Source: Hamadaea tsunoensis DSM 44101 (GTDB lineage Bacteria; Actinomycetota; Actinomycetes; Mycobacteriales; Micromonosporaceae). Taken from it: DNA of 64,000 bases. The DNA lies in the NCBI RefSeq assembly GCF_000428945.1, contig NZ_AUAX01000022.1, positions 1-64,000 of the forward strand, in the 5' to 3' direction. The notes under the pieces were generated by a model. That model was not told where the DNA came from. It worked only from the letters and a program-made list of their open reading frames with translations, and did no database searches. The translations under genes and the position numbers were made by a program. Of this stretch, positions 6,126 through 24,561 are shown piece by piece (the stretch's first letter is position 1; every line of letters starts with the position of its first letter).

Positions 6126-6268
6126 GTGTCTAACTGGGTGACAATCGCGGCGTACGCGGACGGACGTTGGTGAACGGCGGCTGACTATTTCCCGAGCCAG
6201 GCACGGTTGCTCCCCAAGGTCAAACCGCCGTGATCGTTCGTTGACACGGAAGGACGTGTCGTTGCAGA

Positions 6269-6511: not shown

Positions 6512-6611
6512 GCCGGAGAGGATGCCATACGACGACGGCGCCGGTTGGCGACAGCAAGTCCGAGGGGAACCCTGGGCCGCCAGGGTGGAAGCGGTCTCGC
6601 GGTGCTGGCCC

Positions 6612-6650
6612 GGGCCGTCGCCGGGCCGTCAGGGCCGTCATTGGGCCGTC
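6612..6650. repeat. Four copies of GGGCCGTC upstream of the metal exporter
   Basis: GGGCCGTC occurs at 6612-6619, 6623-6630, 6632-6639 and 6643-6650, with start-to-start steps of 11, 9 and 11 bp, i.e. about one helical turn each. It lies in the 297-bp gene-free gap before the CDF gene. Helically phased repeats could bind a regulator cooperatively, but a simple slippage repeat is equally possible. Confidence 0.5.
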
Positions 6651-6750
6651 AAAAGAGGGCCAATGACGACCATCAACGACAATCGTCGCGGACGATCGAT
6701 GCAGCTCAGATGGACCCACGCGACGGTGAACATGGCCGGAAGAGTTTCCG

Positions 6751-6773
6751 CACTTGAAAGCCATGTTCAAGTG
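6751..6773. promoter_or_regulatory. Palindromic operator candidate before the CDF exporter
   Basis: CACTTGAA-agccatg-TTCAAGTG is an 8-bp perfect dyad with a 7-bp spacer, 36 bp upstream of the exporter start. It overlaps a second dyad, GAACATGGC (6728-6736) with GCCATGTTC (6760-6768). Compact AT-rich dyads of this kind are usual targets of ArsR-, MerR- or Zur-type metal sensors. No regulator gene is adjacent, so the binder is unknown. Confidence 0.5.
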
Positions 6774-6808
6774 GCATTTCCCGCCCCTCCGCGCCACCAT
6801 GGGCTGCG

Positions 6809-7792
6809 ATGGACAAGCATGAGCACGCCCACGGCCATGGCGAGCCCCACGGCCACTCCCATGGCGTGAACGCCGACGCCGACCGCCGGTGGCTGTCGAT
6901 CGCCCTTGCCCTGATCCTCGGGTTCATGGCCGTCGAGGTCGTCATCGGCCTGGTCGCGCATTCGCTCGCGCTGCTCTCCGACGCGGCCCACATGCTCACC
7001 GACGCCGCCTCGATCGTGCTGGCGCTCATCGCCGTACGCCTCGCGGCCCGACCCGCTCGCGGTACCTATACGTATGGCCTGAAACGCGCCGAGATTCTGT
7101 CGGCCCAGGCCAACGGGTTGACGCTGCTGCTGCTGGCGGCGTGGCTGGCGTACGAGGCGGTGAAGCGGCTGCTCAACCCGCCCGAGGTGGCCGGCGGGTG
7201 GGTGCTGGTCACGGCGATCGCCGGGATCGGGGTCAATGTGGCGGCCGCGTGGGCGTTGAGCAAGGCCAACCGGGCGAGTCTCAACATCCAGGGCGCGTTC
7301 CAGCATGTTCTGAACGATCTGTATGCCTTCATCGCCACCGCGGTCGCCGGCGCGATCATGCTGCTCACCGGGTTCAGCCGGGCGGACGCGCTGGCGTCCC
7401 TGGTCGTGGTGGTGCTCATGGTGAAGGCGGGGCTCGGGTTGCTGCGCGACTCCGGGCGGATCCTGCTGGAGGCGGCGCCGGCCGGGATCGACCCCGATCA
7501 TATCGGCGACGACCTGCTCCGCCAGCCGGACGTGGTCGAGGTGCACGACCTGCACGTATGGGTGATCACGTCGCAGCAGCCCGCGTTGTCCGCGCACGTG
7601 CTGGTGCAGCCGGCGGCGGACTGCCACGCCGTGCGGGTGCAGCTGCAGGAGGTCCTGGCCAGGGACTACGACCTCACGCACACGACGCTCCAGGTGGACC
7701 ACGTCGGTGAGGAACTGCTGCAGATCCCCTCCGGCGACCACTGCGCCGACTCGCACGGCCCGGTCCACCGCGGCCACGACCACCAGCACTGA
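6809..7792 (+). CDS. Cation diffusion facilitator metal efflux transporter (CzcD/ZitB type)
   Basis: The 327-residue protein has a His-rich N-terminus (HEHAHGHGEPHGHSHG), six predicted membrane helices, and the CDF signature in helix 2 and the following loop (LLSDAAHMLTDAASIVLALI), in which the Asp and His residues form the transport metal site. The region around GTYTYGLKRAEILSAQANG is the conserved cytoplasmic loop. The C-terminal domain (DDLLRQPDVVEVHDLHVWVI) is the usual ferredoxin-like metal-sensing domain, and the protein ends in a second His-rich tail (HRGHDHQH). It should export Zn2+, possibly Co2+, Cd2+ or Ni2+, by proton exchange at the cytoplasmic membrane. It is monocistronic. Confidence 0.93.
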   Translation: MDKHEHAHGHGEPHGHSHGVNADADRRWLSIALALILGFMAVEVVIGLVAHSLALLSDAAHMLTDAASIVLALIAVRLAARPARGTYTYGLKRAEILSAQANGLTLLLLAAWLAYEAVKRLLNPPEVAGGWVLVTAIAGIGVNVAAAWALSKANRASLNIQGAFQHVLNDLYAFIATAVAGAIMLLTGFSRADALASLVVVVLMVKAGLGLLRDSGRILLEAAPAGIDPDHIGDDLLRQPDVVEVHDLHVWVITSQQPALSAHVLVQPAADCHAVRVQLQEVLARDYDLTHTTLQVDHVGEELLQIPSGDHCADSHGPVHRGHDHQH

Positions 7793-7807
7793 TAACGACC
7801 GCCGGCA

Positions 7808-10732: not shown

Positions 10733-10981
10733 ATGTGTCGCCCCCCATAGCTGGCCGGTGGCCCACGCGCGGTCGGGGGAGCGGACGTGGGTGGTCCGCC
10801 GTTGGACAGGTTGAAATATTTGCAGTAATGAACCTGAGCTGGCAGCGCTGTTCGTGCCGTACCTCCCCGACGTTCGTCCGATAGCCTACTAAGCCGCACG
10901 CGGGGGTCAAGCAATCCATAAAGTTTCCTTGCAGATCACACTTGGCCGATTTCTGCCCCGGTTTCGCCTGTGGGTGCGGGC

Positions 10982-11782
10982 TCAGACGTCGCGTCGACGC
11001 AAGGTGATCAGAGCGAGCGCGAGCGCCGCGATCGGCCACGCGGCGTACACGACCCAGGAGCCGAGAAGCGTCGGGGGATAGAAGACGCCCGGGCGTGTCA
11101 CCGCCGGCCAGATGTCCGCGAGCCGCTGCCAGGCGCTCACGATCATCGTGTGCCGGATGTCCGCCTTCCACAACTTGTCGTCGCGGGTGAACTGCGGCAC
11201 GAGCAACAGGAGTACGCCGAGGAAGACCGCCGTCGTCGCCGGGTGCCGCAGAACCGTGCCGATGCCCAGCCCGGTCAGGGCGCAGACCGGCGCGAGCAGG
11301 ACGGCCGCGAGCACCGCCCGGGGTACGCCGGGATCGGTGATCGAGAGTCCGACGTGCCGGTCGGCGAGGATGGCCTGGGTGACGAAGAACGAGGTCAGCG
11401 CGATGAACGCGCCGACGAGGGTGAACACGGCCCCGACCACGGCGGCCTTGGCGAGCAGCACCGCCCGGCGGTCCGGCACGGCGGCGAAGGTCGTGCGGAT
11501 CAGGCCGGAGCTCAGCTCGCCGACGATCGACAGCGCGCCCATCGTGCTCATCGCGAAGATCATGAACAGGTACGCGTTGTTCTGGAACGCGTCGCCGAGC
11601 GCGTAGAAGTGCCGCTGCTCCTCGACGGGAAGCCGGTCGAAGAAAGTTTCATCCCAGAACGCGGCCGAGATGTTCACGTACAGGATGAGGACCGTGCAGA
11701 CGAGCAGGCCCCAGCGTGTCGAGCGCAGCGACCAGAACCTGATCCACTCGGCGACGACGAGATCGCGGAAGCGCGCCTTCAC
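10982..11782 (-). CDS. ABC-2 type exporter permease
   Basis: The 266-residue protein has a cytoplasmic N-terminus (VKARFRDLVVAEWIRFWSLRS) and six hydrophobic segments, with the ABC-2 motif region ELSSGLIRTTFAAVPDRRAVLLAK in the middle. The final helix ends in basic residues (LITLRRRDV), typical of DrrB/NodJ-like permeases. The GTG start overlaps the stop of the ATPase gene (GTGA), so the pair is an exporter unit. The cargo is not evident; a lipid, antibiotic or peptide is usual. Confidence 0.88.
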   Translation of the reverse strand: MKARFRDLVVAEWIRFWSLRSTRWGLLVCTVLILYVNISAAFWDETFFDRLPVEEQRHFYALGDAFQNNAYLFMIFAMSTMGALSIVGELSSGLIRTTFAAVPDRRAVLLAKAAVVGAVFTLVGAFIALTSFFVTQAILADRHVGLSITDPGVPRAVLAAVLLAPVCALTGLGIGTVLRHPATTAVFLGVLLLLVPQFTRDDKLWKADIRHTMIVSAWQRLADIWPAVTRPGVFYPPTLLGSWVVYAAWPIAALALALITLRRRDV

Positions 11783-12675
11783 CGGGCACCCCCGGCGGCG
11801 AACTCGGTACGGTCGGCCGTCAGGCGCATGAAGGACTCCTCCAGGGACGCGTGGCGGGGCGTCAGCTCGTGCAGGCGTACGCCGTGGGTGAAGGCCAGCT
11901 CGCCGAGCTCGTCGGCGCCGAGGCCGCGCACGGTCAGGGTGTCGCCGTCGATCGCGGGCGGCTCCGGCAGGAGAGCGGCGAATCGGGCGGCGTCGGGCGT
12001 ACGGACGAGGACCGAGGTGCCGCCGCGCCGGGCGAAGTCGGCCAGACTCTCGTCGGCGAGCAGCCGCCCCCGGCCGATGACGACCAGATGGTCGGCGGTG
12101 TTCTCCATCTCGCTCATCAGGTGACTGGAGACGAAGACCGTACGCCCCTCGGCGGCCAGGGTCCGGAACATCGTGCGTACCCACTGGACGCCTTCGGGGT
12201 CGAGGCCGTTGAACGGCTCGTCGAACAGCAGCACCGGCGGATCGCCCAGCAGCGCGGTCGCGATGCCCAGGCGCTGGCGCATGCCGAGCGAGAAGCGCCC
12301 GATCATCCGGCCGGCCGCGCTGGTCAGGCCCACCTCGGCGAGCACCTCGTCCACCCGCGTACGCCCGATGCGGTTGCTCGCGGCCAGCGCCCGCAGATGC
12401 GAGCGCGCCGACCGGCCGCCGTGCACGTCGGCGGCGTCGAGCAGGGCGCCGACGTGGTGCAGGCCGCGCGCGTGGGCCCGGAACGGCCGGCCGCCGACCG
12501 TCACCGTGCCGGAGCTCGGCGTGGCCAGGCCGAGGACCATGCGCAGCGTCGTCGACTTGCCGGCGCCGTTCGGGCCGAGGAACCCCGTGACCCGGCCGGG
12601 CCGCACGGTGCAGGTGAGGTCGTCGACCGCCGTGGTCTCGCGGTAGCGCTTCGTCAGCGCGGTCATCTCGATCAC
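11779..12675 (-). CDS. ABC exporter ATPase (DrrA-like)
   Basis: Walker A GPNGAGKST, Q-loop region, signature FSLGMRQRLGIATALL, Walker B PPVLLFDEPFNGLD and switch His in SSHLMSEM are all intact. The C-terminal extension (about 220-298) is typical of ATPases that pair with ABC-2 permeases. GTG 12675 (reading VIEMTALTKRY) aligns best with the family start; the frame stays open to 12711. It is coupled to the permease and diverges from a histidine kinase over an 83-bp promoter gap, suggesting control by that two-component system. Confidence 0.9.
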   Translation of the reverse strand: MIEMTALTKRYRETTAVDDLTCTVRPGRVTGFLGPNGAGKSTTLRMVLGLATPSSGTVTVGGRPFRAHARGLHHVGALLDAADVHGGRSARSHLRALAASNRIGRTRVDEVLAEVGLTSAAGRMIGRFSLGMRQRLGIATALLGDPPVLLFDEPFNGLDPEGVQWVRTMFRTLAAEGRTVFVSSHLMSEMENTADHLVVIGRGRLLADESLADFARRGGTSVLVRTPDAARFAALLPEPPAIDGDTLTVRGLGADELGELAFTHGVRLHELTPRHASLEESFMRLTADRTEFAAGGAR

Positions 12676-12758
12676 CGTAGGCACGATGCCGGAAGCGCGG
12701 CCGAGAAGCATCCGCCGGCGGGCGTACGCCCACGGGAGAATGCCCTGATCGCGGCGGT

Positions 12759-13919
12759 ATGGCTACGATCGGCGGCGTGGAAGAACCGCGACCGAGGCCC
12801 AGTGGGCGGGCAATGGTGATCATCGTGGCGGCCGTGGCGGCCCTCGCCGCCCTCTGGACGACCGTCGTCATGCCCGTCAACGTCGACCGCTACGTGTGGC
12901 CGGTGGCGGGCGTGGTCGCGCCCGCCCTGCTGCTGCGCCGGTTCCCGAAGACCGCCCTGACGATCATGTTGCTGGTCACCGCGTGGTTCGCGTTCAGCCT
13001 GCGCGGCTGGCAGGCCGGGTACCTGCGCGACCTGCGGTACATCACCTTCATCGTGATCGACCTCGCCATCGTCTACCTCGCCGTACGCCGGCCGCGCGTG
13101 AGCTCCGTCGTCTTCGCGGTCTCGGTGCTCGGTGTGCAGCTGGCCATCGTGTTCATCCGTCCGATCTGGACGATGGACACGGTCAACCTCGCCGTCGACG
13201 CCTTCTTCGCGCTCCTCATCGCCTGGACGATCGGCAGCCAGATCCGCCAGCGCCGGGCCCAGGCCGAGCACGACCGGGCCCGGGCGGCCGAGCGGACGAT
13301 GGCCGAGGAGCGCCAGCGCATCGCCCGCGAGGTGCACGACATGGTGGCGCACAGCATCGGCATCATCGCCATCCAGGCCGGGGTGGGGCGCCGGGTCATC
13401 GACACCCGCCCGGACGCGGCCCGCGACGCGCTCGACGTCATCGAGGCGACGAGCCGCCAGACGCTGGCCGGACTGCGGCGTACGCTCGGCACGCTCCGGC
13501 AGGCCGACGGCAGCGCCTCCCTCGATCCACTGCCCGGCCTGGCCGATCTCGACCGGCTCGCCGAGCAGACCGAGCGGGCCGGCGTACGCGTGTCCGTCGT
13601 GCGGTCCGGCGAGGCGGTCGCGGTGCCGGGGGACATCGACCTGTCGGCGTACCGGATCGTGCAGGAGGCCCTGACCAACGTCGTACGCCACGCGGGCGTC
13701 GCCGAGGCGCGGGTCGCCCTGGCCTACGGCGGGGACGCCCTGACCGTCGAGATCGTCGACGACGGCTGCGGCGGCCAGCCGGAAGGCAGCGGGTTCGGCC
13801 TGGCCGGCATGCGCGAACGGGTGGCCCTGCTCGGCGGCGAGATCGAGGCCGGCCCCCGCGACGGCAAGGGATTCCGCGTTTTCGCGAGGATCCCGTTGAG
13901 TCTGGTGACGGCATCATGA
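12759..13919 (+). CDS. NarL-family sensor histidine kinase
   Basis: The 386-residue protein has four or five membrane helices in residues 18-155, a coiled linker (RQRRAQAEHDRARAAERTM) and a HisKA_3 dimerisation domain with the phospho-acceptor His193 in ERQRIAREVHDMVAHS. A HATPase domain follows with N-box VVRHA, G1 DDGCGG and G2 GFGLAGMRERV. This is the compact DesK-like layout with little extracellular sequence, so it may sense a membrane event such as the transporter's substrate. It is coupled to the response regulator by an ATGA overlap and diverges from the ABC exporter. Confidence 0.92.
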   Translation: MATIGGVEEPRPRPSGRAMVIIVAAVAALAALWTTVVMPVNVDRYVWPVAGVVAPALLLRRFPKTALTIMLLVTAWFAFSLRGWQAGYLRDLRYITFIVIDLAIVYLAVRRPRVSSVVFAVSVLGVQLAIVFIRPIWTMDTVNLAVDAFFALLIAWTIGSQIRQRRAQAEHDRARAAERTMAEERQRIAREVHDMVAHSIGIIAIQAGVGRRVIDTRPDAARDALDVIEATSRQTLAGLRRTLGTLRQADGSASLDPLPGLADLDRLAEQTERAGVRVSVVRSGEAVAVPGDIDLSAYRIVQEALTNVVRHAGVAEARVALAYGGDALTVEIVDDGCGGQPEGSGFGLAGMRERVALLGGEIEAGPRDGKGFRVFARIPLSLVTAS

Positions 13920-14569
13920 GTGTCCGGGTGATGCTTGTGGACGATCAGCCGCTGATCCGGTCGGCGCTGCGCGTCCTGATCGAGGGCACCGAGGGGATGG
14001 ACGTCGCCGGCGAGGCCGCCTCCGGTGCCGAGGCCGTACGCCTCACCGCCGACCTGCGCCCGGACGTCGTCGTCATGGACATCCGGATGCCCGGCATGGA
14101 CGGGATCGAGGCGACCCGGCTGATCACGGCGAGCGGCGCGGCGCGCGTACTGATCCTGACGACGTTCGACGACGACGACTACGTCTACGGCGCGCTGCGG
14201 GCGGGGGCGAGCGGCTTCCTCGTCAAGGACATGGCCCTGGAGGAGATCCTCGGTGCGATCCGGGTGGTCGCGGGCGGCGACGCGCTCATCGCGCCGAGCG
14301 TGACCCGGCGGCTGATCTCCGAGTTCGCCGGCCGGCCCGCCGTGGTGCCGGCCGCCGCCCGGCCGATGGCGGACGGGGTCACCGAACGCGAACGCGAGGT
14401 GCTGACGCTGGTCGGCCAGGGGCTGTCCAACACCGAGATCGCGGCACGGCTGTTCATCAGCGTCGCGACGGCGAAGGCCCACGTCGCCCGGTTGCTGTCC
14501 AAACTGGGCGCGCGGGATCGCGTACAACTGGTGATCTTCGCTTATGAACTGGGTCTGGTGCAGCCGTAA
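13916..14569 (+). CDS. NarL/FixJ-family response regulator
   Basis: The receiver domain (1-120) has the acidic pair DD near residues 9-10, phospho-acceptor Asp55 in VVVMDIRMPG and Lys in FLVKD. The C-terminal LuxR helix-turn-helix (about 150-210) reads TEREREVLTLVGQGLSNTEI then ATAKAHVARLLSKLGARDRV. At 217 residues it is full length. Its start overlaps the kinase stop; it likely regulates the divergent ABC exporter. Confidence 0.94.
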   Translation: MSVRVMLVDDQPLIRSALRVLIEGTEGMDVAGEAASGAEAVRLTADLRPDVVVMDIRMPGMDGIEATRLITASGAARVLILTTFDDDDYVYGALRAGASGFLVKDMALEEILGAIRVVAGGDALIAPSVTRRLISEFAGRPAVVPAAARPMADGVTEREREVLTLVGQGLSNTEIAARLFISVATAKAHVARLLSKLGARDRVQLVIFAYELGLVQP

Positions 14570-14574
14570 GTGGG

Positions 14575-14606
14575 GGGCCGGGCCCCGACCCGCCGGGGCC
14601 CGGCCC
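14575..14606. terminator. GC hairpin between convergent genes
   Basis: GGGCCGGGCCCCG (14575-14587) pairs perfectly with CGGGGCCCGGCCC (14594-14606) across a 6-nt loop, squarely between the response regulator end and the substrate-binding protein end. It suits a bidirectional terminator. Confidence 0.75.
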
Positions 14607-14611
14607 GGTCG

Positions 14612-15901
14612 TCAGCCGCCCACGGCGCCGGCGGCGTTCATCCGGCGGGTGATCTCGTCGCTGGCCTGACGGGCGAGCGTCGCGAGGTCGCCGCCGGAGA
14701 GCACCTGGGTCATGTAGCGGCGGATGACGTTGGGCTCGTTCTCGACGGCGGCCCAGCGCGGGTCGACGGGCATGGACCGGCCGAACGCGGCCGCCTGCGA
14801 GACCACGGTCATGACCGGGTCGTTGGCGACCGCCGGGGCGAGCGTGGTCTTGTCCGGCACGTACCAGTTGTTGGGGTACTGCACGAGCTTGGTCTGGTAC
14901 TTGTCGCCGGTCAGCATCTTGATGTACTCGTACGCCAGGTCGGCGTGCTTGCTGCGGACCGGGATGGACAGGTTGGAGCCGCCGACGAAGACCGAGCCGG
15001 GCTTGTCGGCGGTCAGCCCGGGGATCGGGAAGACGCCGAGCTTGCCGTCGAGCGACGGGTTCTTGGTGATCGCCTCGTGGTAGTAGAGCGGCAGCGAGAC
15101 CATCTGCGCGGTGTCGCCCTGGGCGAACACGTCCGAGCTGCGCGGCACGTCCTCGTCGGAGTCCGGGGCGAGCTTGGAGAACTTGAACATGGTCTGGAAG
15201 TAGCGCATCGCGTCGACCGACTGCGGGGAGTCCAGGGCACCCTTCCAGCTGCCGCCGTCGTCCGTCGCCAGCTGGCCGCCGCGGTCCCAGATGAAGCCGC
15301 ACAACGCGTACCAGAACGTGCCGGGCAGGAGCAGCGCCTGGAACTTCGGATCACCCGCGTACGCGTTCTTCAGCTTCTGCGACACCTGCACCCATTCGGC
15401 CTGGGTCTTCGGCGGCGTCACACCCGCCCGCTCGAACATGTCCTTGCGGTACACGACGACCCGGTTGGAGGCGAAGAACGGGATGCCGAACTGCTTGTTC
15501 TCCCACACCCCCGAGTCGACCAGGCCCGGCAGCCAGTGGTCGCCGCCGAGCTCGGCCTTCTTGCCGGTCAGGTCGAGCAGGCCGCCGCCGCGGGCGAAGC
15601 TGACCGTCTGCGTGCTGCCGGTCTCGATGACGTCCGGCGGGTTGCCACTGCTCAGCGCGGCGCTCAGGGTGGTCTGGATGCCGGCCCACTTCTGGATCTC
15701 GTAGCGCACCTTGTAACCGGAGTGGGTCGCCTCGAACTCCTTGTCCAGGTCCGCGATGACCTGGTCGGGAGCGGAGTCCTCCATCAGCCACACGCGGATC
15801 GTCTTCTGGTCGCCGGCGTTCTCGGTCTTGGTCGTCACGCAGCCGGACGCCGCGACCATCACGCCGGCCAGGCTCACGGCAAGGAACAGTTTGGTCTTCA
15901 C
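14612..15901 (-). CDS. Sugar ABC transporter substrate-binding lipoprotein (orphan)
   Basis: From GTG 15901, with a G-rich ribosome site, the signal peptide KTKLFLAVSLAGVMVAASGC ends in a lipobox, so the mature protein is lipid anchored. The remainder is a type-1 extracellular solute-binding domain (TIRVWLMEDSAPDQVIADLD, later GNPPDVIETGSTQ, and KLGVFPIPGL) of about 405 residues, of the size and style that binds oligosaccharides. The longer frame from 15964 would bury the signal peptide. Unusually no permease or ATPase gene is adjacent; it must use a transporter encoded elsewhere or have a sensing role. Confidence 0.9.
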   Translation of the reverse strand: MKTKLFLAVSLAGVMVAASGCVTTKTENAGDQKTIRVWLMEDSAPDQVIADLDKEFEATHSGYKVRYEIQKWAGIQTTLSAALSSGNPPDVIETGSTQTVSFARGGGLLDLTGKKAELGGDHWLPGLVDSGVWENKQFGIPFFASNRVVVYRKDMFERAGVTPPKTQAEWVQVSQKLKNAYAGDPKFQALLLPGTFWYALCGFIWDRGGQLATDDGGSWKGALDSPQSVDAMRYFQTMFKFSKLAPDSDEDVPRSSDVFAQGDTAQMVSLPLYYHEAITKNPSLDGKLGVFPIPGLTADKPGSVFVGGSNLSIPVRSKHADLAYEYIKMLTGDKYQTKLVQYPNNWYVPDKTTLAPAVANDPVMTVVSQAAAFGRSMPVDPRWAAVENEPNVIRRYMTQVLSGGDLATLARQASDEITRRMNAAGAVGG

Positions 15902-16112
15902 GCTGCCCCCCAGTGGGTCTCCCGGGCGGGTGCTCGGTTGCTCATTCGGGTTCCTCCTGCTCATCCCTGCTCGTCCTGCTGATCGCTTCAGAGAGCGTTC
16001 GGGGAGCTACTATGAGTCGCCCATCGATCCGCTATGCATCCGTCGCCGGCATCCGGGCGCGCGGACGATGGCGACGGGAGAAAAGCATCGACGAGCATCA
16101 CCGTCGAGTCCG

Positions 16113-16799
16113 ATGAACACCGATACGATCCTTTACCTCGACGAGCGCGCGACCCGCCAGGCCTGCCGGCACCTCGACCCCGCCGCGGTCGTCGTCGCCG
16201 CCCACCGCCGGGGCGTCCCGCACTCGATGGCGACCCCGGTCGTCTCCGCCGTCCCCGGCGACCCCCGGCTCACCGTCCTGGTCGACCGGTGGCTCTGGCT
16301 CGACGTGTGCCTCATCTCCTCGGCGTACCTGGCCGGGCTGCGGGTCGCGGCCACCGCCGCCGCGCTCGCCGCGCACCTGCTGCGGGGGCTGCCCGTCACG
16401 GCCGCCGTCCTCGGCGCGACCCCGGAGACGGTCGAGGCCCTGCTGCACGCCCTGCCCGGCCTCGTGCACCTGAGCGTGTACGGGGTCATGCCCGGCCTGC
16501 CCGTGCTGGAGGCGGCCCGGCGGTTCGGCGTACGCGTGAGCGCGGTCGCGGACGCCGAAGAAGCGGTCTACGGGGCGAATCTGATCGTCGGCACACCGCC
16601 GTTCGCGACGCTCTCCCCGGACGCCGTGGTGCTGGCGGCGGGCGGGAAGCTGCGCCTGTCCGACGTGCTGGACGAGTCGCCCGACGAGGGACTGCGGGTG
16701 GTCGACCCCGATGACGGCGGCCTCGGGGCGGACGCGCTCGCCGTCGAGATCTACCGCACCGCCGTACGCCTCAACCTCGGCGTACGCCTGCCGCGCTGA
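16113..16799 (+). CDS. Short ornithine cyclodeaminase/mu-crystallin-like protein
   Basis: The 228-residue protein begins ILYLDERATRQACRHLDPAA, like the N-terminal arm of the ornithine cyclodeaminase family. It then has a Rossmann-like part with VYGVMPGLPVLEAARRFGVR, followed by AEEAVYGANLIVGTPP, matching the family pattern of adenine-ribose region and (D/N)-(V/L)-(V/I)-V-x-(A/G)-T-P. Normal members have 310-350 residues; here the central part and the catalytic Asp region are reduced, so activity is doubtful. The start ATG 16113 lacks a clear ribosome site. It stands alone between two transcription units. Confidence 0.6.
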   Translation: MNTDTILYLDERATRQACRHLDPAAVVVAAHRRGVPHSMATPVVSAVPGDPRLTVLVDRWLWLDVCLISSAYLAGLRVAATAAALAAHLLRGLPVTAAVLGATPETVEALLHALPGLVHLSVYGVMPGLPVLEAARRFGVRVSAVADAEEAVYGANLIVGTPPFATLSPDAVVLAAGGKLRLSDVLDESPDEGLRVVDPDDGGLGADALAVEIYRTAVRLNLGVRLPR

Positions 16800-16877: not shown

Positions 16878-18704
16878 ATGCCTCGCGTGTCCGTCGTGAT
16901 CCCCGCCTACAACCGCGTACGCACCCTGCCGCTGTGTCTCGACTCGGTCGCCCGCCAGACCCGTACCCCTGACGAGGTCATCGTGGTCGACGATGCGAGT
17001 ACCGACGGCACGGCCGACCTCGCCGCCTCCCTCGGCGCGACCGTCGTGCGCCTGCCCGTCAACGGCGGCGTGTCCGTCGCCCGTAACGCCGGGGTCGCGG
17101 CCAGCTCCGGCGAGGTGCTCTTCTTTCTCGACTCCGACGAAGCCCTGGCGGAGCACTCGATCGCCAACGCCCTCGAACTCCTGGCGGGCGGCTACGGCGT
17201 CGTGCACGGGGTGATCGCGCCCGAGCCGCTCATCGACGACGGTCCGGTCGAGTGGTACAAGACGCTGCACGCGTACTTCTGGCGCAAGCGCGGGGCCGGC
17301 GAGGTGCCGACCGCCTTCTTCGCCCAGGCCGCCATGCCGCGCCACGTCTTCGACGAGGTCGGCCCGTTCAAGCCAGAGCTGCGCGACAGCGAGGACCTCG
17401 AATACAGCGAGCGCCTCGCGCCGCGCCACCGCATCCTGCTCACCGACCGGATCTCCGCGCGCCACGACGAGGAGCACCGCCTGTGGCCGATGCTGCGGGA
17501 GCAGTTCCGCCGGTCGCTGCTGCTGGGGGAGACGCTCTTCGCCGCCCGCCGGTCCGGCCGCACGTCGCTCACCGCCAACCGTCCACTCGGGATTCTCGCG
17601 GTCGGCCTGATGCTCGTCGCGCTCGGGCTCTCGCTCCTGTCGCCCTGGTCGCTGGTCGCGGCCGCCGGATTCCTCGCGCTCTTCACCGCCGCCGACCCGG
17701 GGCTGCTGAGCTTCGTGGCCCGCCGCAAGGGAATCCCGTTCCTCCTCTACTTCCTCTGCCTGCACCTGCTCACCCATGTCGCCCTGGTGGCCGGCGCCGT
17801 CGTGGGTCTGCTCCGCCTTCGAGGTGTACGCGTCGCGGTGGCCACCGGAATGGTCGTCGCGGCCGCGGTGGCCGTCGTGCTGCTCGTCCGCCACGACCGT
17901 GCGGTGCTGTCGGCCGCGCTGGCCCGGCCGCGAGCGCTGCCCCTGGCGCTGCTGGCGTTGGTGGCCAACGCAGTCGGCCTGTGGCTCGGGATGCTGTCGT
18001 GGCGGGCGCTGCTCGGCCGCCGGATCCCCGCCCTGGCCGCCGGGCGCATCTTCTTCCTCGGCCAGTTGAGCAAGTACCTGCCGGGCCGGGTGTGGGGCGT
18101 CGTCACGCACATCGAGCTCGGCCGTCCACTCGGGATGGACGCGGCCCGGATGACGACGGCGTACCTGATGAGTCTCGGGATCACCACGCTGACCGGGTTC
18201 GTCGTCGGGCTGCTGGCCGCCCCGCTCACCTACGCGCTGGCCGCGCCCGTCGCGGTGCTCCTCGTGCTGCTGCTCTGGCCGGCGCTGCTCACCGCGCCCG
18301 TCGGCTGGGTCGCCCGGCGGGTGGGCAAGCCCGTCGAACCGCTGCCCGGTAGCGCTGTGCGGGCAGGCGTGCTCACCGCGGTGATCTCGTGGCTCGCGTC
18401 CGGCGTACACCTGTGGGCCGTCGCCGTGGCGCTCGGCGCGGAACCGGCCCGGGCTGCCCTGCCCAGTGCGGGCGCCTTCGCTCTGGCGACGGTGGCCGGA
18501 AGCCTCGTGCTGATCGTGCCCGACGGCTGGGGTGTACGCGAAGTGGCGATCGTCGGCGCGCTCGCGACGGTGCTGCCGCCCGCGACGGCGGCCGCGGCGG
18601 CGGTGGCGAGCCGGATCGTCTGCGTGCTCGCGGAGCTGACGACGTCGCTCGCTGTTCTGGGCACTTCGAAACTGTCTACTAAGGAGACAGCGCATGCGGT
18701 ATGA
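16878..18704 (+). CDS. GT2 glycosyltransferase fused to an AglD-type flippase-like membrane domain
   Basis: The N-terminal domain (residues 1-225) is a GT-A family 2 glycosyltransferase: RVSVVIPAYNRVRTLPLCLD, then EVIVVDDASTDGT and metal-binding LFFLDSDEA. Residues 235-310 contain helices that link to a C-terminal domain (about 320-600) with eight or so membrane helices of the LPG synthase TM/UPF0104 type (LGQLSKYLPGRVWG, later IVPDGWGVREVAIV). Such fusions usually transfer or move sugars on a polyprenyl-phosphate carrier. It is the first gene of a six-gene coupled operon, overlapping the next gene by 11 bp. The donor sugar is unknown. Confidence 0.88.
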   Translation: MPRVSVVIPAYNRVRTLPLCLDSVARQTRTPDEVIVVDDASTDGTADLAASLGATVVRLPVNGGVSVARNAGVAASSGEVLFFLDSDEALAEHSIANALELLAGGYGVVHGVIAPEPLIDDGPVEWYKTLHAYFWRKRGAGEVPTAFFAQAAMPRHVFDEVGPFKPELRDSEDLEYSERLAPRHRILLTDRISARHDEEHRLWPMLREQFRRSLLLGETLFAARRSGRTSLTANRPLGILAVGLMLVALGLSLLSPWSLVAAAGFLALFTAADPGLLSFVARRKGIPFLLYFLCLHLLTHVALVAGAVVGLLRLRGVRVAVATGMVVAAAVAVVLLVRHDRAVLSAALARPRALPLALLALVANAVGLWLGMLSWRALLGRRIPALAAGRIFFLGQLSKYLPGRVWGVVTHIELGRPLGMDAARMTTAYLMSLGITTLTGFVVGLLAAPLTYALAAPVAVLLVLLLWPALLTAPVGWVARRVGKPVEPLPGSAVRAGVLTAVISWLASGVHLWAVAVALGAEPARAALPSAGAFALATVAGSLVLIVPDGWGVREVAIVGALATVLPPATAAAAAVASRIVCVLAELTTSLAVLGTSKLSTKETAHAV

Positions 18705-19806
18705 CGTGACCGTCGTTCTGAACTACTACGCGCCCTATGTGAGCGGGCTGACCGAGGCAGCCAGGCTGGTCGCGGAGGGGCTGGCCGGGCGCGGCCACAA
18801 GGTCGCGGTGGTCTGTGCCCAGCACGACACCGCGCTGCCGCTGCGGGAGCGGCGGGCCGGCGTGGACGTGTTCCGCTGCCCGGTGGGCCTGCGGATCAGC
18901 CGGGGCGTGCTGAGCCCGGCGTTCCCGCGGCTGGCCGCGAAGCTCGCCCGGGAGTCCAGAGTGGTGCATCTGCACGCGCCGATGCTGGAGGCCGGGTTGA
19001 TCGCCCGCCTGGCCGGCCGTACGCCGATCGTCACGACCTACCACCTGGACCTGTGGCTGCCGAAGGGGTTCGTGAACTCGGCGGCCGCCAAAGCGACCGA
19101 CCTGTCGGCGCAGATGGCGATCCGGCGGTCGGCCGCGGTCGTGGTGAACAGCGTCGACCAGGCCGACCACTCACGGATCCGGCCGACCCTGGACAAGCAG
19201 GGCTACGTGCCGATCCCGGCACCGTGCGTCGACCGCAGCGGCGGCAAGCCCGGCTACCGGGAGACGGACGGGCTGCACATCGGGTTCATGGGCCGCATCG
19301 TCGAGGAGAAGGGGATCGAATACCTCGTCGAGGCGTTCCGGCGGCTGCCCGACACCGACGCCCGGCTGCTGCTCGCCGGGGACTACCTGGCGGTGGCCGG
19401 CGGCAGCTGCATCGACCGCGTACGCGCGGCCGCCGACGGGGACGGCCGGATCCGGATCCTCGGGCTGCTCTCGGGGACGGACATCGACGACTTCTATTCC
19501 TCGATCGACCTGTTCGCCCTGCCCAGCGTGTACGAGTCGTTCGGCATCGTGCAGGCCGAGGCGATGATCGCGGGGGTCCCGTCGATCACGGCGGAGGTGT
19601 GGGGCGGCCGCGTCCCCATCCAGCAGACGGGGTTCGGCGAGCTCATCCCGCCGGAGAACCCCGACGCCATCCTCGCGGCGATCCAGAAGCTGCGCGAGCT
19701 GCCGCCCGACCACCGGGCCGAGCGCGCCGCCCTGGCCTGGCAGCTCTACGGCGTGACGCCGTGCGTGGACGCGTACGAAAAACTTCTGACGGGAGTCTAT
19801 CGATGA
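18694..19806 (+). CDS. GT4-family glycosyltransferase
   Basis: The 370-residue GT-B enzyme begins MRYDVTVVLNYYAPYVSGLT, with a Gly-poor acceptor loop. Its C-terminal GT4 half contains IGFMGRIVEEKGIEYLVEAF, the binding-site segment FALPSVYESFGIVQAEAMIAG and the ExxxxxE pattern within it. It is cytoplasmic and probably membrane associated, transferring a nucleotide sugar to a lipid or glycan. It starts inside the preceding gene and its TGA overlaps the next ATG, so coexpression is tight. The role in the operon is probably adding a sugar to the polyprenyl-linked precursor. Confidence 0.88.
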   Translation: MRYDVTVVLNYYAPYVSGLTEAARLVAEGLAGRGHKVAVVCAQHDTALPLRERRAGVDVFRCPVGLRISRGVLSPAFPRLAAKLARESRVVHLHAPMLEAGLIARLAGRTPIVTTYHLDLWLPKGFVNSAAAKATDLSAQMAIRRSAAVVVNSVDQADHSRIRPTLDKQGYVPIPAPCVDRSGGKPGYRETDGLHIGFMGRIVEEKGIEYLVEAFRRLPDTDARLLLAGDYLAVAGGSCIDRVRAAADGDGRIRILGLLSGTDIDDFYSSIDLFALPSVYESFGIVQAEAMIAGVPSITAEVWGGRVPIQQTGFGELIPPENPDAILAAIQKLRELPPDHRAERAALAWQLYGVTPCVDAYEKLLTGVYR

Positions 19807-21254
19807 CCCAGCATGCGATGACCCACCATGCGATGACCCAGCCCCAGCTGATCACGCTGGAGGAGTGCGACAAGCTCAGCGTCGAGCAGGTCCACGACCT
19901 CTACCGCAAGTATGTCAACAAGAGCCAGGTCTCGCTGATGACCTCGTTCGGCTTCGGCCGGGAACTCGCCGAGCGGGCCGAGGGCGCGTACATCTACGAG
20001 CGCGGCGGGCGCAAGGTGCTCGACTTCACCGGCGGCGTCGGCGTCCTGTCCCACGGCCACAACCACCCGCGCGTCCTGGCCGCCCGCCGGCGCTTCGCCG
20101 AGCAGCAGCGGATGGAGGTGCACAAGACCTACTTCTCGCCCTACGTCGCGGCCCTCGGGCACAACCTCGCCGCGGTCCTGCCCGGCGACCTCAACCTCTC
20201 GTTCTTCCCCAACTCCGGGGCGGAGGCCGTCGAGGGCGCGGTCAAGCTCGCGTACAAGTACCACGGCGGGAAGCGCAACACGATCCTGCGCGCCGACATC
20301 AGCTTCCACGGCAAGCTGCTCGGCTCCGGCGGGCTCACCGCCGGGGCGCAGTCGCACTTCGCGTTCCCGACCATCCCCGGCATCGCCTCCTTCGCCTACG
20401 GCGATCTCGATTCCGTACGCCGACTCGTCGCCGCCCACGCCGGAGACGTGTACGCCCTTCTCATCGAACCGTTCAGCGCCTCGACGATCCGGTGGTGCTC
20501 GGAGGAGTTCCTGCGCGGCGTACGCGAGATCTGCACCGAGCACGACATCGTGCTGGTGTTCGACGAGATCTACTCCGGCTGGGGCAAGACCGGTTCGCTG
20601 TTCTACTTCATGCGCTACGAGGGCCTGATCCCGGACGTGGTCACGACGTCGAAGACGTTCGGCGGCGGCAAGTCGTCGATCTCGGCGTACGTGGCCCGGG
20701 AGAAGGTGTTCCGCAAGGCGTACGACAACCTGAACGACGCGCTGATGACGAGCACGAGCACGACCTACTACGGGTTCGGCGAGGAGTGCGCGACCGCGGT
20801 CGAGGCGATCGCCGTGGTCATGGAGGAGGACTTCCCGGCCCGGGCGCGCGCGATCGGCGAGCAGCTGGGCACCGGGCTGCGGGCGTTGCGGGCCAAGTAT
20901 CCCGAGGCCATCGGCGACGTGCAGGGCGACGGCGCGATGTGGGGCGTCTTCATCGACGGCGGCCCGAAGGTGCTGGACCTCGTCACGAAGTTCGCGCCCG
21001 GCGGCCTGGCCAAGGACCCGCGCTTCAAGGCGAAGCTCGTGACCAGCTCGGTCATCAACGCGCTCTACCGCGACCACGCGCTCTACACGTACTACACCCT
21101 CAACGGGCTCAACCCGCTGATCTTCGGCCCGCCGCTGATCGTCGGCCGCGACGAGGTCCAGTACGCCCTCGACGCCCTCGACGCCGTGCTCGCCCAGGGG
21201 CTGACGAAGCTCGTGACGCGGTTCGTCGCCGAGAAGGTGAGCACGCTGTGGTGA
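19803..21254 (+). CDS. Class III PLP-dependent aminotransferase
   Basis: The 483-residue fold-type I enzyme has the motif FPNSGAEAVEGAVKLAYKYH (phosphate/PLP region), DEIYSGWGKTG with the PLP-ring Asp, and the Schiff-base Lys284 in TTSKTFGGGKSS, all usual for class III. The N-terminus carries a 15-bp repeat giving MTQHA-MTHHA-MTQPQ with three in-frame ATGs (19803, 19818, 19833); the first overlaps the previous stop. Placed between glycosyltransferase and sugar epimerase genes, it may aminate a keto-sugar or its lipid-linked form. HpnO-type hopanoid aminotransferases are an alternative comparison. The substrate cannot be read from sequence. Confidence 0.9.
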   Translation: MTQHAMTHHAMTQPQLITLEECDKLSVEQVHDLYRKYVNKSQVSLMTSFGFGRELAERAEGAYIYERGGRKVLDFTGGVGVLSHGHNHPRVLAARRRFAEQQRMEVHKTYFSPYVAALGHNLAAVLPGDLNLSFFPNSGAEAVEGAVKLAYKYHGGKRNTILRADISFHGKLLGSGGLTAGAQSHFAFPTIPGIASFAYGDLDSVRRLVAAHAGDVYALLIEPFSASTIRWCSEEFLRGVREICTEHDIVLVFDEIYSGWGKTGSLFYFMRYEGLIPDVVTTSKTFGGGKSSISAYVAREKVFRKAYDNLNDALMTSTSTTYYGFGEECATAVEAIAVVMEEDFPARARAIGEQLGTGLRALRAKYPEAIGDVQGDGAMWGVFIDGGPKVLDLVTKFAPGGLAKDPRFKAKLVTSSVINALYRDHALYTYYTLNGLNPLIFGPPLIVGRDEVQYALDALDAVLAQGLTKLVTRFVAEKVSTLW

Positions 21255-22291
21255 GGACGGTCGCGGTCACGGGCGCGGCCGGGATGCTCGGCTCACGCCT
21301 GGTCACCCGCCTGCTCGCCGACGGCTGCTCGGTACGCGGCATCGACCTCCGTCCCGGTTCTCCGGAGGAGTCTCTGGAGTGGACGGTCGCCGACGTGCGG
21401 GACACCGCCGCGATGACCGCCGCGTTCCGGGGCGTGGACCTCGTCGTCCACACCGCGTCGGCCCTGCCGAGCTATCCCGAGGCGGAGATCTCCTCGATCA
21501 TCGTCGGCGGCACGACCTCCGTCTTCGACGCCGTACGCGCGGCCGGCGTACCCCGGATCCTGCACGTCTCCTCGACGGCCGTGTACGGCCTGCCGTCCGT
21601 GGTGCCGACGACGGAGGCGTACCCGCGCGAGCCGGTCGACGCGTACAGCCGGGCGAAGGCGGCGGCCGAGGAGATCGCCGAGCGGCACCGCGCGGACGGG
21701 CTGGCGGTGGGGATGCTGCGGCCCAAGACGTTCCTCGGGCCGGGCCGGATGGGCCTGTTCGCGATGCTCTTCGAGTGGGCCGACGAGGGCCGCAATTTCC
21801 CCGTCCTCGGCAAGGGCGACGTACGCATCCAGATGTTCGCCCTGTCCGACCTCGTGGACGCCGTCGTGACGGTGCTCAACGCGCCCGACGACGTCTTCGT
21901 GGACACCTACAACGTGGGCGCCGAACGGTTCGGCACGTTCCGCGAGGACCTCCAATCGGTGCTGGACGCGGCCGGGCACGGCAAGCGCGTCGTCAGCCTG
22001 CCGGCCCGCCCGGCGCTGGCCCTGCTGCGCGGGCTGGAGCGCACGAAGCTGTCGCCGGTCTACGGCCGCCTGCTGTCGAAGTTGCAGGCCGACTCCTATG
22101 TGAGCGTCGAGAAAGCCAAGTCGCGCTTCGGTTTCGCACCCAAGCTGTCCAATCAGGACGCGATCCTGGCGAGCTACGAGTGGTGGCGCTCGCAGCGCGA
22201 CCTCGCGCCCGCGACCCGCCCGTCGGGCGGCCGGACCAGCCGCGACCCGTGGCGGCAGGGCGCCCTCGCCGCCGTGAAGTTCTTCTTCTAG
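21251..22291 (+). CDS. NAD-dependent sugar epimerase/dehydratase (extended SDR)
   Basis: The 346-residue protein has the nucleotide-binding motif TGAAGMLGSRL, the VVHTASA segment, LHVSSTAVYG with the catalytic Ser/Thr and the YSRAK pair (Tyr and Lys). This is an intact extended short-chain dehydrogenase active site. The C-terminus carries a basic extension of about 30 residues (RPSGGRTSRDPWRQ) that may bring it to the membrane. The GTG start overlaps the aminotransferase stop (GTGA). It may oxidise or epimerise the sugar that the aminotransferase modifies. Confidence 0.9.
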   Translation: MRTVAVTGAAGMLGSRLVTRLLADGCSVRGIDLRPGSPEESLEWTVADVRDTAAMTAAFRGVDLVVHTASALPSYPEAEISSIIVGGTTSVFDAVRAAGVPRILHVSSTAVYGLPSVVPTTEAYPREPVDAYSRAKAAAEEIAERHRADGLAVGMLRPKTFLGPGRMGLFAMLFEWADEGRNFPVLGKGDVRIQMFALSDLVDAVVTVLNAPDDVFVDTYNVGAERFGTFREDLQSVLDAAGHGKRVVSLPARPALALLRGLERTKLSPVYGRLLSKLQADSYVSVEKAKSRFGFAPKLSNQDAILASYEWWRSQRDLAPATRPSGGRTSRDPWRQGALAAVKFFF

Positions 22292-22309
22292 GAATGGGGT
22301 AGTCGCACC

Positions 22310-23296
22310 ATGACCGTCGCCGATCCGGCGCAGCCGAGGACGGCCGTCCCGCCGGCGCCCGCTCTCGCGGACGATCCGCCTCGCCGGGGCCGCCTCGCCG
22401 ATCTGATCAACCTCGTACGCCCGCGGCAGTGGTCGAAGAACGCGGTCGTCGTCCCGCTGGCGCTGCTCGACGCGCCGGACTGGTCGGCGCGGGCGTTCAC
22501 GCGCATCGGCTGGGCGGTGCTGGTCTTCACGATCGCGGCGAGCCTCGTCTACGTCGTGAACGACATCGCCGACCGGCACCGCGACGCCGAGCATCCCGTG
22601 AAACGGCACCGGCCGCTGGCCTCGGGACGCGTCGGCGTCGGCCTCGCCTGGGCGTACGCGGTCCTGCTCGGGGCGCTGCTCGTCGGCGGGCTGGCCGTCG
22701 AACCGCTGACGCTGGGCTGGCCGGCACTGGCGTACGTGGCGCTCAACCTCGCGTACAGCACGTGGCTCAAGCACCTGCCGATGGTCGACGTGTTCGTCAT
22801 CGCCGGCGGATTCCTGCTGCGGCTGGTCATCGGGGACCTCGCCGCCGGATCGCACGTCTCGGGCTGGCTGACCGTCAGCGTGCTCGCCCTGTGCCTGCTG
22901 CTCATCCTGGGCAAGCGGCGTACCGAGATCCTCGCCTCCACCACCGAGCACCGGCCGGCCCTGCGCGGCTACACCGTCCAGCTGGCCGACTACCTGATCC
23001 TGCTGAGCGCCGGGCTGACCGGCGTGGCCTTCCTGCTGTACCTGCGTACGGAGGCGCCCATCGGCGGGTACGCGACCGCGGCCATGCTCGTCTCGGCGCC
23101 GTTCGCGCTGTTCTGCCTGTTCCGCTACCTGCAGAACCTGCTGATCCGGCACACCGGCGGCGACCCGGCGGCGGCGCTGTTCGGCGACCGCGTCCTGGTC
23201 ACCAGCTCCCTGCTGTGGATGGTGCCGCTGGTCGCCATCTTCGCCGCCGCCCGCTATCCCGGTTTCGCGCACGCCCTGCTGCACGGCGTCATCTGA
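22310..23296 (+). CDS. UbiA-family polyprenyl-phosphate phosphoribosyltransferase-like protein
   Basis: The 328-residue integral membrane protein has about nine helices and the two Asp-rich motifs of the DPPR synthase subgroup: RPRQWSKN near residue 43, then NDIADRHRDAEHPVKRHRP at about 84-102, and a second motif around LKHLPMVDVFVIA. The HPxKxxRP element is characteristic of decaprenyl-phosphate 5-phosphoribosyltransferases, which join PRPP to decaprenyl phosphate in arabinan precursor synthesis. In this operon it probably makes the lipid-linked pentose on which the other enzymes act. ATG follows a GGAATGGGG-like site 18 bp after the epimerase. Confidence 0.9.
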   Translation: MTVADPAQPRTAVPPAPALADDPPRRGRLADLINLVRPRQWSKNAVVVPLALLDAPDWSARAFTRIGWAVLVFTIAASLVYVVNDIADRHRDAEHPVKRHRPLASGRVGVGLAWAYAVLLGALLVGGLAVEPLTLGWPALAYVALNLAYSTWLKHLPMVDVFVIAGGFLLRLVIGDLAAGSHVSGWLTVSVLALCLLLILGKRRTEILASTTEHRPALRGYTVQLADYLILLSAGLTGVAFLLYLRTEAPIGGYATAAMLVSAPFALFCLFRYLQNLLIRHTGGDPAAALFGDRVLVTSSLLWMVPLVAIFAAARYPGFAHALLHGVI

Positions 23297-23310
23297 GAGG
23301 TGCTGTTTCG

Positions 23311-24465
23311 ATGTCCCAGTCTCTGCAAGACGTCCCGGCGACCGAGACGCCGGAACCCGAGCCGGCCGCCCCGGTCCAGGCGCGCTGGAACCGGCGTACG
23401 CGCTTCTTCGTGTGGTTCGCCGCGCTGTGGGTCGCGTACCTCGTGGCTCATCTGGTCTTCAGCGGGGTTTCCTACCTGTTCCTGCTGTTCGACCTGCTGC
23501 CGCCGCCGGCGTACCTCCTGGTGGGTGTGATCTTGATCGTGGCGGGGGTGACGCTGCGGGCGGCGAGAAGGTACGTGCTGACGCTCGCGGTGGCCGCGAT
23601 CCTGTTGAGCGCGAATCTCACGGGGCTGAACCCGCACGCGGTGTTCGGCGGGGGCGACGGCGCGGCACCGGCCGGATCGCTGAAGATCTTCTCCTGGAAC
23701 ACCGAGTACTGGGACCAGTACGACAGCCCGGACCAGTTCTACGACTTCCTCAAGGCGCAGAACGCCGACGTGTACCTGTTGCAGGAGTACATCTTCTGGG
23801 ACAACACGATGAACGCGCAGTGCCTGCCGACCGGCCCGCGGTCGGCGGGCGACCTGCTGCGGCTCAAGCAGGTGTTCCCGGGCTACACCGTGACCACCCG
23901 CGGCGAGCTGCTCACGCTGTCGCGGCTGCCGGTGGTGGCCACGCCGCCGGTCGCGCCGGACTGGGGCCGGCTGCCGGTCGAGGACTGGACCGACGTCTAC
24001 ACGAACGTCAAGGTGCTGCGCACGGACGTGAAGGTCGGCGACCGGATCCTGTCGATCTACAACACGCACATGCCGGTGCAGCTGGGCGAGCACTCGCTGC
24101 TGACCCTCGACTTCCTCAAGGACGTGGCGTTCGCCGACACCGCGCGGCGCGACCAGTTCGAGGGCGTGCACGACGACATCGCCGCCAACCGGAACCCGGT
24201 CCTCCTCGCGGGTGATTTCAACACCTCACCGTCCATGGGGGACATGCACTGGATCACCTCGGTGGCCGACGACGCGCTGCGGGCCAACCGCGACCTGTAC
24301 CCGTACAGCTGGCGGTCGCGCAGCACGGTCAACGCGTTCCCGATGCCGCTGTGGCGGCTGGACTGGGCGTTCACGGCGCACGGGGTCAAGGTCCACGACT
24401 ACGACTTCATGCCCACCGAGCGGATGAGCGACCACCGCGCGCAGTCCTTGTCCATCTCGCTGTAG
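23311..24465 (+). CDS. Membrane-anchored EEP-family phosphatase/nuclease-fold protein
   Basis: The 384-residue protein has a cytoplasmic head, three hydrophobic segments (about residues 33-110) and an extracytoplasmic EEP domain. Active-site motifs are FSWNTEYWDQ, LLQEYIFW, IYNTHMPV, LLAGDFNTSPS and MSDHRAQ, which give the Asn, Glu, His, Asp/Asn and final Asp-His set, so it should be catalytic and Mg2+ dependent. As it follows the UbiA gene by 14 bp, it may remove a phosphate from the lipid-linked product, as PAP2-type Rv3807c is thought to do in mycobacteria. A 75-bp palindrome ends the operon. Confidence 0.87.
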   Translation: MSQSLQDVPATETPEPEPAAPVQARWNRRTRFFVWFAALWVAYLVAHLVFSGVSYLFLLFDLLPPPAYLLVGVILIVAGVTLRAARRYVLTLAVAAILLSANLTGLNPHAVFGGGDGAAPAGSLKIFSWNTEYWDQYDSPDQFYDFLKAQNADVYLLQEYIFWDNTMNAQCLPTGPRSAGDLLRLKQVFPGYTVTTRGELLTLSRLPVVATPPVAPDWGRLPVEDWTDVYTNVKVLRTDVKVGDRILSIYNTHMPVQLGEHSLLTLDFLKDVAFADTARRDQFEGVHDDIAANRNPVLLAGDFNTSPSMGDMHWITSVADDALRANRDLYPYSWRSRSTVNAFPMPLWRLDWAFTAHGVKVHDYDFMPTERMSDHRAQSLSISL

Positions 24466-24470
24466 GGCAT

Positions 24471-24545
24471 GATCCCGCTTGGATCAGGGAAGTCACCCGA
24501 ATCATGGCCCTTGATTCGGGGGGTATCCCTGATCCAAGCAGGGTC
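24471..24545. repeat. 75-bp dispersed palindrome, copy A
   Basis: It starts GATCCCGCTTGGATCAGGGA and ends TCCCTGATCCAAGCAGGGTC (18 of 20 positions complementary), with an inner CCCGAATCA/TGATTCGGG dyad. It begins 6 nt after the operon's last stop codon and precedes the prolyl oligopeptidase gene. Likely a terminator; see copies at 36125, 46009, 62688 and 63845. Confidence 0.85.
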
Positions 24546-24561
24546 GTGACACACTGACGGC

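Follow-up and report, generated by a model that had tools for sequence, protein, structure and literature searches.

A six-gene operon of the actinobacterium Hamadaea tsunoensis DSM 44101 was analyzed within a stretch of 64,000 nucleotides (contig NZ_AUAX01000022.1, positions 1 to 64,000), hereafter called the window. On balance we lean, with modest confidence, towards an operon that makes an amino-pentose linked to polyprenyl phosphate and exports it. This reading is built on a UbiA-family protein whose site residues are mostly those of a phosphoribosyl pyrophosphate (PRPP) transferase, on an aminotransferase whose gene is linked in many actinobacteria to those of UbiA and of a short-chain dehydrogenase/reductase (SDR), and on a comparable row of genes in Neorhizobium. 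The operon lies at 16878-24465 on the + strand and comprises the following genes:

16878..18704, + strand: fusion of a family 2 glycosyltransferase (GT2; Pfam PF00535, residues 5-115) and a flippase-like LPG_synthase_TM domain of the MprF/YbhN type (PF03706, residues 325-581)
18694..19806, + strand: GT4 glycosyltransferase (GT4-type Pfam domains), accessory by its distribution
19803..21254, + strand: class III aminotransferase (PF00202, 208 bits, cut-off 30.5), with the pyridoxal phosphate (PLP) lysine K284 at about 20652-20654
21248..22291, + strand: extended SDR of the epimerase/dehydratase type with Thr-Tyr-Lys (Pfam PF01370, SDR/Epimerase 122 bits)
22310..23296, + strand: UbiA-family protein, probable polyprenyl-phosphate phosphoribosyltransferase (Pfam UbiA 68 bits, cut-off 34.2)
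23311..24465, + strand: membrane protein of the EEP superfamily with three N-terminal helices (PF03372, 49 bits, cut-off 24.5)

The genes are tightly packed, the spacing from each stop to the next start being -11, -4, -7, +18 and +14 bases. The main Pfam family exceeds its curated cut-off in all six proteins; the fusion protein scores 104 bits for GT2 and 39 bits for PF03706 (cut-off 33.4). An original prediction made from the DNA sequence had placed six genes of these families at the same coordinates and on the same strand. That observation is confirmed, and its interpretation as a whole is partly supported.

The UbiA protein

The motifs NDxxD and HPxKxxRP announced for the UbiA protein are present as NDIAD and HPVKRHRP, at about 22559-22615. 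When the protein was compared to solved structures at E<=1, two matches only were obtained, both named decaprenyl-phosphate phosphoribosyltransferase: 8j8j_D (E 3.5e-32, over residues 23-309) and 8j8k (E 1.5e-22), the former being the Mycobacterium tuberculosis enzyme according to passages of PMC11127046. In passages of PMC10994848, the PRPP/Mg site of Rv3806c is given as R22, K28, Y70, N73, D77, K87, R90, Q135, Y138, K143 and Y157. Upon alignment to the structure chain, nine of these eleven residues are identical in the window protein, with Q135 replaced by N and Y157 by F, so that the assignment to PRPP enzymes, which the loss of such residues was to refute, stands. Residue 157 is also Phe in some mycobacteria (passages of PMC10994848). 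The nine identical residues are invariant across 77 family open reading frames (ORFs) wherever aligned (73 to 77 rows); in the same 77 ORFs position 135 is N in 60 and S in 17, and position 157 is F throughout. No HAD domain is found by Pfam in the window protein. It is probably, as judged from these residues, a polyprenyl-phosphate phosphoribosyltransferase of the decaprenylphosphoryl-5-phosphoribose (DPPR) synthase type.

The aminotransferase and the SDR

The PLP lysine K284 is kept in all 83 family ORFs of the aminotransferase, and residues T110, Y133 and K137 of the SDR in 81 of 81. The residue preceding the PPL-type motif of the aminotransferase is V in 52, I in 16 and M in 13 of the 83 ORFs, with a gap in 2. 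It is never Arg, which we take to be the carboxylate-binding residue of class III aminotransferases at this position and which is present in YgjG and in the Neorhizobium enzyme described below. The best NCBIfam matches, to PigE (231 bits for a cut-off of 850) and putrescine aminotransferase (224 for 612), both stay under cut-off. The AlphaFold model of the aminotransferase (mean predicted local distance difference test, pLDDT, 67.6) was not used. A hopanoid pathway was dismissed: the HpnA-like score of 80 bits and the HpnB-like one of 31 are far under the respective cut-offs of 368 and 379. A precedent for an SDR acting on a lipid-linked pentose is provided by Citrobacter youngae O2, where, according to passages of PMC11127046, the SDR of a polyprenyl-phosphate-ribose system determines xylofuranose versus ribofuranose.

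Conservation of the gene set across actinobacteria

A collection of genome contigs was scanned with the aminotransferase alone, using six peptide patterns, and the best 80 of 110 relatives were taken. In all of these 80 loci the SDR gene comes directly after the aminotransferase gene and on its strand, and the set further includes UbiA (76), GT2 (76), EEP (74), a flippase-type gene (70), an aldo-keto reductase (AKR, 48) and GT4 (18). When the 13 loci shorter than 20 kb are left out, the counts for the remaining 67 are SDR 67, EEP 67, UbiA 66, GT2 64, flippase 63, AKR 42 and GT4 16. Among these 67, UbiA is absent in L044, a recognized flippase in L019, L033, L064 and L087, and a recognized GT2 in L057, L090 and L093. 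Gene families were derived from a home-made gene caller followed by clustering, with approximate ORF ends, and the flippase and GT2 counts are therefore probably lower bounds; TBLASTN detected weak GT2-flippase matches in three loci scored as lacking GT2. A chance neighborhood was rejected in view of this linkage across loci. The predicted co-occurrence holds for the SDR, UbiA, EEP, GT2 and flippase-type genes. It does not extend to GT4, which is on these counts an accessory member, nor to the fusion: most relatives encode GT2 and flippase separately, and at least two GT2 genes are present in many.

Hosts of the set include Streptomyces, Micromonospora, Salinispora, Herbidospora, Actinosynnema, Amycolatopsis and Myceligenerans. 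Its distribution is patchy, the aminotransferase being found in 8 of the 61 genomes of a search among relatives (own genome included, E<=1e-60), in 3 of the 396 genomes of a phylum sample (own included, E<=1e-80) and in 26 of 199 genomes of a Streptomyces-like genus. Nine extra copies were collected, seven in relatives (L097, L098, a second copy in L099, and L100-L103) and two in plasmid records (L107, L108); eight of the nine have UbiA nearby, and in seven the SDR gene is next to that of the aminotransferase.

Some of these loci display features of their own. The aminotransferase relative of L108, on a plasmid of Embleya sp. NBC_00888, is surrounded (6374-14906) by genes for a DegT aminotransferase, a PgfS/ArnC-like GT2, a flavin oxidoreductase and two GMC oxidoreductases. 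In L100, genes for a nucleotide-sugar dehydrogenase and for a dehydratase/UXS-like SDR (7099-9517) hint that the glycan contains a uronic acid or a pentose. The GT4 gene of L136 (7147-8273) is split over two overlapping frames (matches 7159-7386 and 7365-8258) by a frameshift or sequencing error.

A parallel locus in Neorhizobium

When 72,556 plasmid records were searched with the window aminotransferase at E<=1e-60, three matches were obtained, one of them outside Actinomycetota, in Neorhizobium sp. SOG26 (35% identity, 97% covered). The genes of this locus (L106) lie on one strand in the order GH10, HAD-UbiA fusion, DprE1-like oxidase, ArnF-like protein, SDR, aminotransferase and NAGPA phosphodiester glycosidase. 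The HAD-UbiA fusion reaches 628 bits with PRK08238 (cut-off 351), while the DprE1-like oxidase (349, cut-off 500) and the small ArnF-like membrane protein (57, cut-off 99) are under theirs. This row of HAD-UbiA, DprE1-like, ArnF-like, SDR and aminotransferase genes supports a link of the aminotransferase to a lipid-carried pentose. The HAD domain could, speculatively, strip the 5-phosphate in the cytoplasm, and the phosphodiester glycosidase gene next to that of the aminotransferase suits the idea of a release of the sugar.

The Neorhizobium aminotransferase scores 291 bits against the window enzyme, where nine other enzymes of class III reach 147-177 bits, and itself scores 211-240 bits against those nine; by these scores it is the closest to the window family, by a margin that is not wide. 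It groups with the actinobacterial enzymes at 99/99 in a tree, which is unrooted and carries a long-branch warning, and the relationship was for this reason rested on the bit scores. With the Neorhizobium enzyme as query, 24 plasmid records matched at E<=1e-50. No UbiA is annotated beside the aminotransferase in seven of the records besides Neorhizobium, over the 0.5 to 8 kb per side covered by incomplete gene tables; two more are unannotated over the stretch and contributed only their aminotransferase, as outgroup. HAD-UbiA matches occur in 83 plasmid records, among which that of Neorhizobium is the sole one looked into, and Neorhizobium is the one case found outside Actinomycetota.

Sister clusters and the lack of a DprE1 match over cut-off

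The own genome (9.48 Mb, 99.5% complete) encodes a second PRPP-type UbiA on contig C26, in a cluster (L096, about 5644-11451) with SDR (55%), GT4 (56%), EEP, GT2 and flippase genes and no match to the aminotransferase. The sister set, likewise devoid of the aminotransferase, is also found in genomes G002, G003, G004 and G012, with GT4 in all five clusters; in that of G002 (L135), which is cut off by the end of its contig, no match to the flippase was obtained. Among three congeners, two contain the sister cluster and none the aminotransferase, the third (G001) being 87% complete. Judged from these clusters, the aminotransferase appears to have been added to a pathway for a lipid-carried pentose, and transfer may have brought in the window cluster. 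The presence of the SDR in the sister clusters suggests a separate role for that enzyme.

No protein of the own genome matches DprE1 over cut-off (best 54 bits versus 500); its two PF04030 matches fit FAD oxidoreductase and lactone oxidase models better. No DprE1-like match was found in the 80 related loci either, at E<=1e-8. The two PRPP-type UbiA proteins of the genome hence hardly supply the standard arabinan route, and canonical arabinan synthesis was held unlikely.

The EEP protein and its side of the membrane

The structure model of the EEP protein (pLDDT 90.2) displays helices at residues 28-50, 65-81 and 83-103 ahead of the domain. Lys and Arg residues before helix 1, between helices 1 and 2, between helices 2 and 3 and after helix 3 number 4, 0, 3 and 0 with a simple helix finder, and 1, 0, 3 and 0 with the helix ends of the model; the domain of the window protein is predicted to be outside the membrane. 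Across 115 family ORFs, the simple method places the domain outside in 68 and inside in 47, the commonest class having three helices and the domain outside (53), and the family shows a leaning towards the outside. Eleven conserved positions are kept in 33 to 40 of 40 rows, the catalytic residues and the fold being both present. The sequence matched no solved structure at E<=1. A Foldseek search with the model retrieved AP endonucleases, TDP2 and neutral sphingomyelinase, which do not distinguish a phosphatase from a phosphodiesterase nor indicate the bond cut.

It had been proposed that this phosphatase makes polyprenyl-phosphoribose. The predicted outward orientation fits badly with a production of polyprenyl-phosphate-ribose in the cytoplasm and speaks against that step, and a role in product release rather than formation becomes possible. 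The target of the enzyme may then be the lipid after flipping, from which it would take off the 5-phosphate or, as a phosphodiesterase, release the sugar.

Proposed pathway and alternatives

The pathway that we favor can be summarized as follows. The UbiA protein would transfer 5-phosphoribose from PRPP onto polyprenyl phosphate, as suggested by homology and by the conserved site residues. The SDR would oxidize or epimerize the lipid-linked pentose, and the class III aminotransferase would introduce an amine at its carbonyl. Class III aminotransferases act mostly on terminal aldehydes, and C5 was for this reason deemed a likelier position than C3 or C2. The GT2 and GT4 enzymes may extend the product or synthesize further lipid-linked sugars, the LPG_TM domain would flip the lipid-linked sugar and the outward EEP protein would remove phosphate or cleave a phosphodiester outside, the putative product being a cell-surface or secreted amino-glycan.

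A number of points weigh against this scheme. The action of the aminotransferase on a lipid-linked pentose is suggested by gene neighborhood only, the substrates of both SDR and aminotransferase are putative, and the sister clusters manage without the aminotransferase. Amination at C5 requires a cytoplasmic loss of the 5-phosphate, yet the EEP domain seems to be outside. The UbiA protein does not reach the NCBIfam models of decaprenyl-phosphate phosphoribosyltransferase (PRK12324 equivalog; 179.9 bits for a cut-off of 234 and 174.3 for 207), and it is consequently described as working like DPPR synthase and not claimed as a curated equivalog. The actinobacterial aminotransferases, devoid of the Arg mentioned above, may have an unusual amino donor or bind it unusually. 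In the second copy of L099, UbiA and GT4 are present and the SDR is not adjoining, and the Embleya copy has no partner gene within 10 kb at E<=1e-8. Finally, the six proteins include no GT-C transferase able to use a flipped donor (no GT-C family in Pfam at E<=0.1; GT136 was not searched genome-wide), and GT87 is present in just 8 related loci.

The best surviving alternative, still a rather unlikely one in our estimation, is a lipid-carried pentose glycan in which UbiA and SDR make a polyprenyl-phosphate-pentose and the aminotransferase makes a soluble or nucleotide-linked amino sugar that is added by GT2 or GT4. It agrees with the five sister loci, where SDR, UbiA, GT2, GT4 and EEP occur without the aminotransferase, and with the Embleya copy, which adjoins a DegT aminotransferase and a PgfS/ArnC-like GT2 in the absence of UbiA. 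However, the SDR gene accompanies that of the aminotransferase in 80/80 loci and GT4 in only 18/80, and Neorhizobium pairs the aminotransferase with UbiA, DprE1-like and SDR genes. A secreted small amino sugar or iminosugar, for which the lipid is a carrier only and from which the outward EEP enzyme (NAGPA in Neorhizobium) frees the exported aminopentose, would account for the predicted location of the EEP domain, for its gene in 67 of the 67 loci of at least 20 kb and for the NAGPA gene immediately after the Neorhizobium aminotransferase. It appears distinctly improbable, as the matches to the EEP fold (phosphodiesterases, endonucleases) are silent on the bond cut, the simple method places the domain inside in 47/115 and the several glycosyltransferase genes suggest a larger glycan. 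That the operon is a usual route to arabinan or ribofuranose side chains which has picked up unrelated genes, as the DPPR-synthase type of the UbiA protein would suggest, is hardly credible given the lack of DprE1 in the own genome (over cut-off) and of DprE1-like matches in the 80 loci (E<=1e-8) and the linkage of aminotransferase and UbiA in 76/80 loci.

The favored reading of a lipid-linked and exported amino-pentose can be extended to a bolder proposal, which we advance as an unlikely one: a separate and widespread amino-pentose route, in which a class III enzyme whose donor site is unusual would aminate PRPP-loaded ribose on polyprenyl phosphate. Cytoplasmic glycosyltransferases would extend the product, the MprF-like domain would flip it and an EEP phosphodiesterase would free it outside, yielding new secreted amino-pentose glycans or iminosugars.

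If the amino-pentose reading is true, lipid-carried ribose is a source of amino-pentoses besides ribo-, xylo- and arabinofuranose, which adds a branch to a known sugar pathway and gives a second route next to the Arn pathway. It would point to positively charged surface or secreted glycans, not yet known, in Streptomyces, Micromonospora and their kin. The SDR and the class III aminotransferase constitute a named enzyme pair that is testable in membranes. Searches of an open-access library brought up no description of a class III aminotransferase in a lipid-carried pentose gene set, in agreement with the suggestion that the combination is uncharacterized, and the word aminotransferase is absent from the main text of PMC11127046.

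Boundaries and neighboring genes

Directly past the last stop of the operon lies the following element, a terminator by position only:

24468..24548, no strand assigned: 81-nt hairpin

Its two 40-nt arms are separated by 1 nt and 80% complementary, with a folding energy of -57.1 kcal/mol (z -7.8). A T-run is lacking, and a terminator scan, which returned two sites, did not pick out the hairpin. The gene downstream of the operon belongs to the prolyl oligopeptidase family. Upstream are found a 226-amino acid ORF (16034-16714) without Pfam match at E<=1e-5, a histidine kinase and a response regulator (12813-14569), the latter judged from its sequence, and a SARP-type regulator with BTAD, NB-ARC and TPR domains (7808-10732). 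ORFs of the same families as the SARP-type regulator, histidine kinase and response regulator occur in 19, 14 and 18 of 81 loci, respectively, the window being counted.

Comparison with known systems

Class III sugar aminotransferases include hopanoid HpnO, the aminoglycoside 6'-enzymes and GabT1 of nojirimycin synthesis, which aminate a sugar carbonyl. They share their class with the window enzyme and are not known to act on polyprenyl phosphate. The EEP protein was likened to VanJ/StaP by architecture alone, both being membrane EEP proteins. VanJ is tied to teicoplanin resistance in passages of PMC4790382 and PMC6001138.

The mycobacterial decaprenyl-phosphate-arabinose route (Rv3806c, Rv3807c, DprE1/E2) shares with the operon a UbiA-family PRPP transferase whose PRPP-site residues are mostly the same. 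It differs in that the own genome has no DprE1 over cut-off, that the operon contains an SDR and an aminotransferase together with GT2 and GT4 partners, and that an EEP protein is found where the mycobacterial route uses Rv3807c.

The pathway of 4-amino-4-deoxy-L-arabinose (L-Ara4N), or Arn pathway, resembles the proposed one in outline, with a lipid-linked amino-pentose and a flippase. In that pathway, a DegT-type enzyme aminates a UDP-sugar before lipid loading, whereas the operon is proposed to load the lipid from PRPP and its aminotransferase is of class III. The parallel drawn with L-Ara4N by the original prediction gains from the ArnF-like gene that accompanies the HAD-UbiA, DprE1-like, SDR and aminotransferase genes in Neorhizobium; it does not extend to ArnA, ArnB and ArnC, as no Arn model is over cut-off among the matches listed for the six proteins.

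Three-component pentofuranose systems are described for Citrobacter youngae O1/O2 in passages of PMC11127046. The window UbiA protein differs from theirs by the lack of a HAD domain, and the operon by the lack of a GT-C, by the additional aminotransferase and by an LPG_TM domain in place of a MATE protein as flippase. Of the synthase and the 5-phosphate phosphatase that define such systems, the first is probably represented by UbiA without HAD, and a candidate for the second is the EEP protein, predicted outside. The operon shares with these systems a probable polyprenyl phosphoribose synthase, an SDR proposed to act on the lipid-linked pentose and a flippase-like protein.

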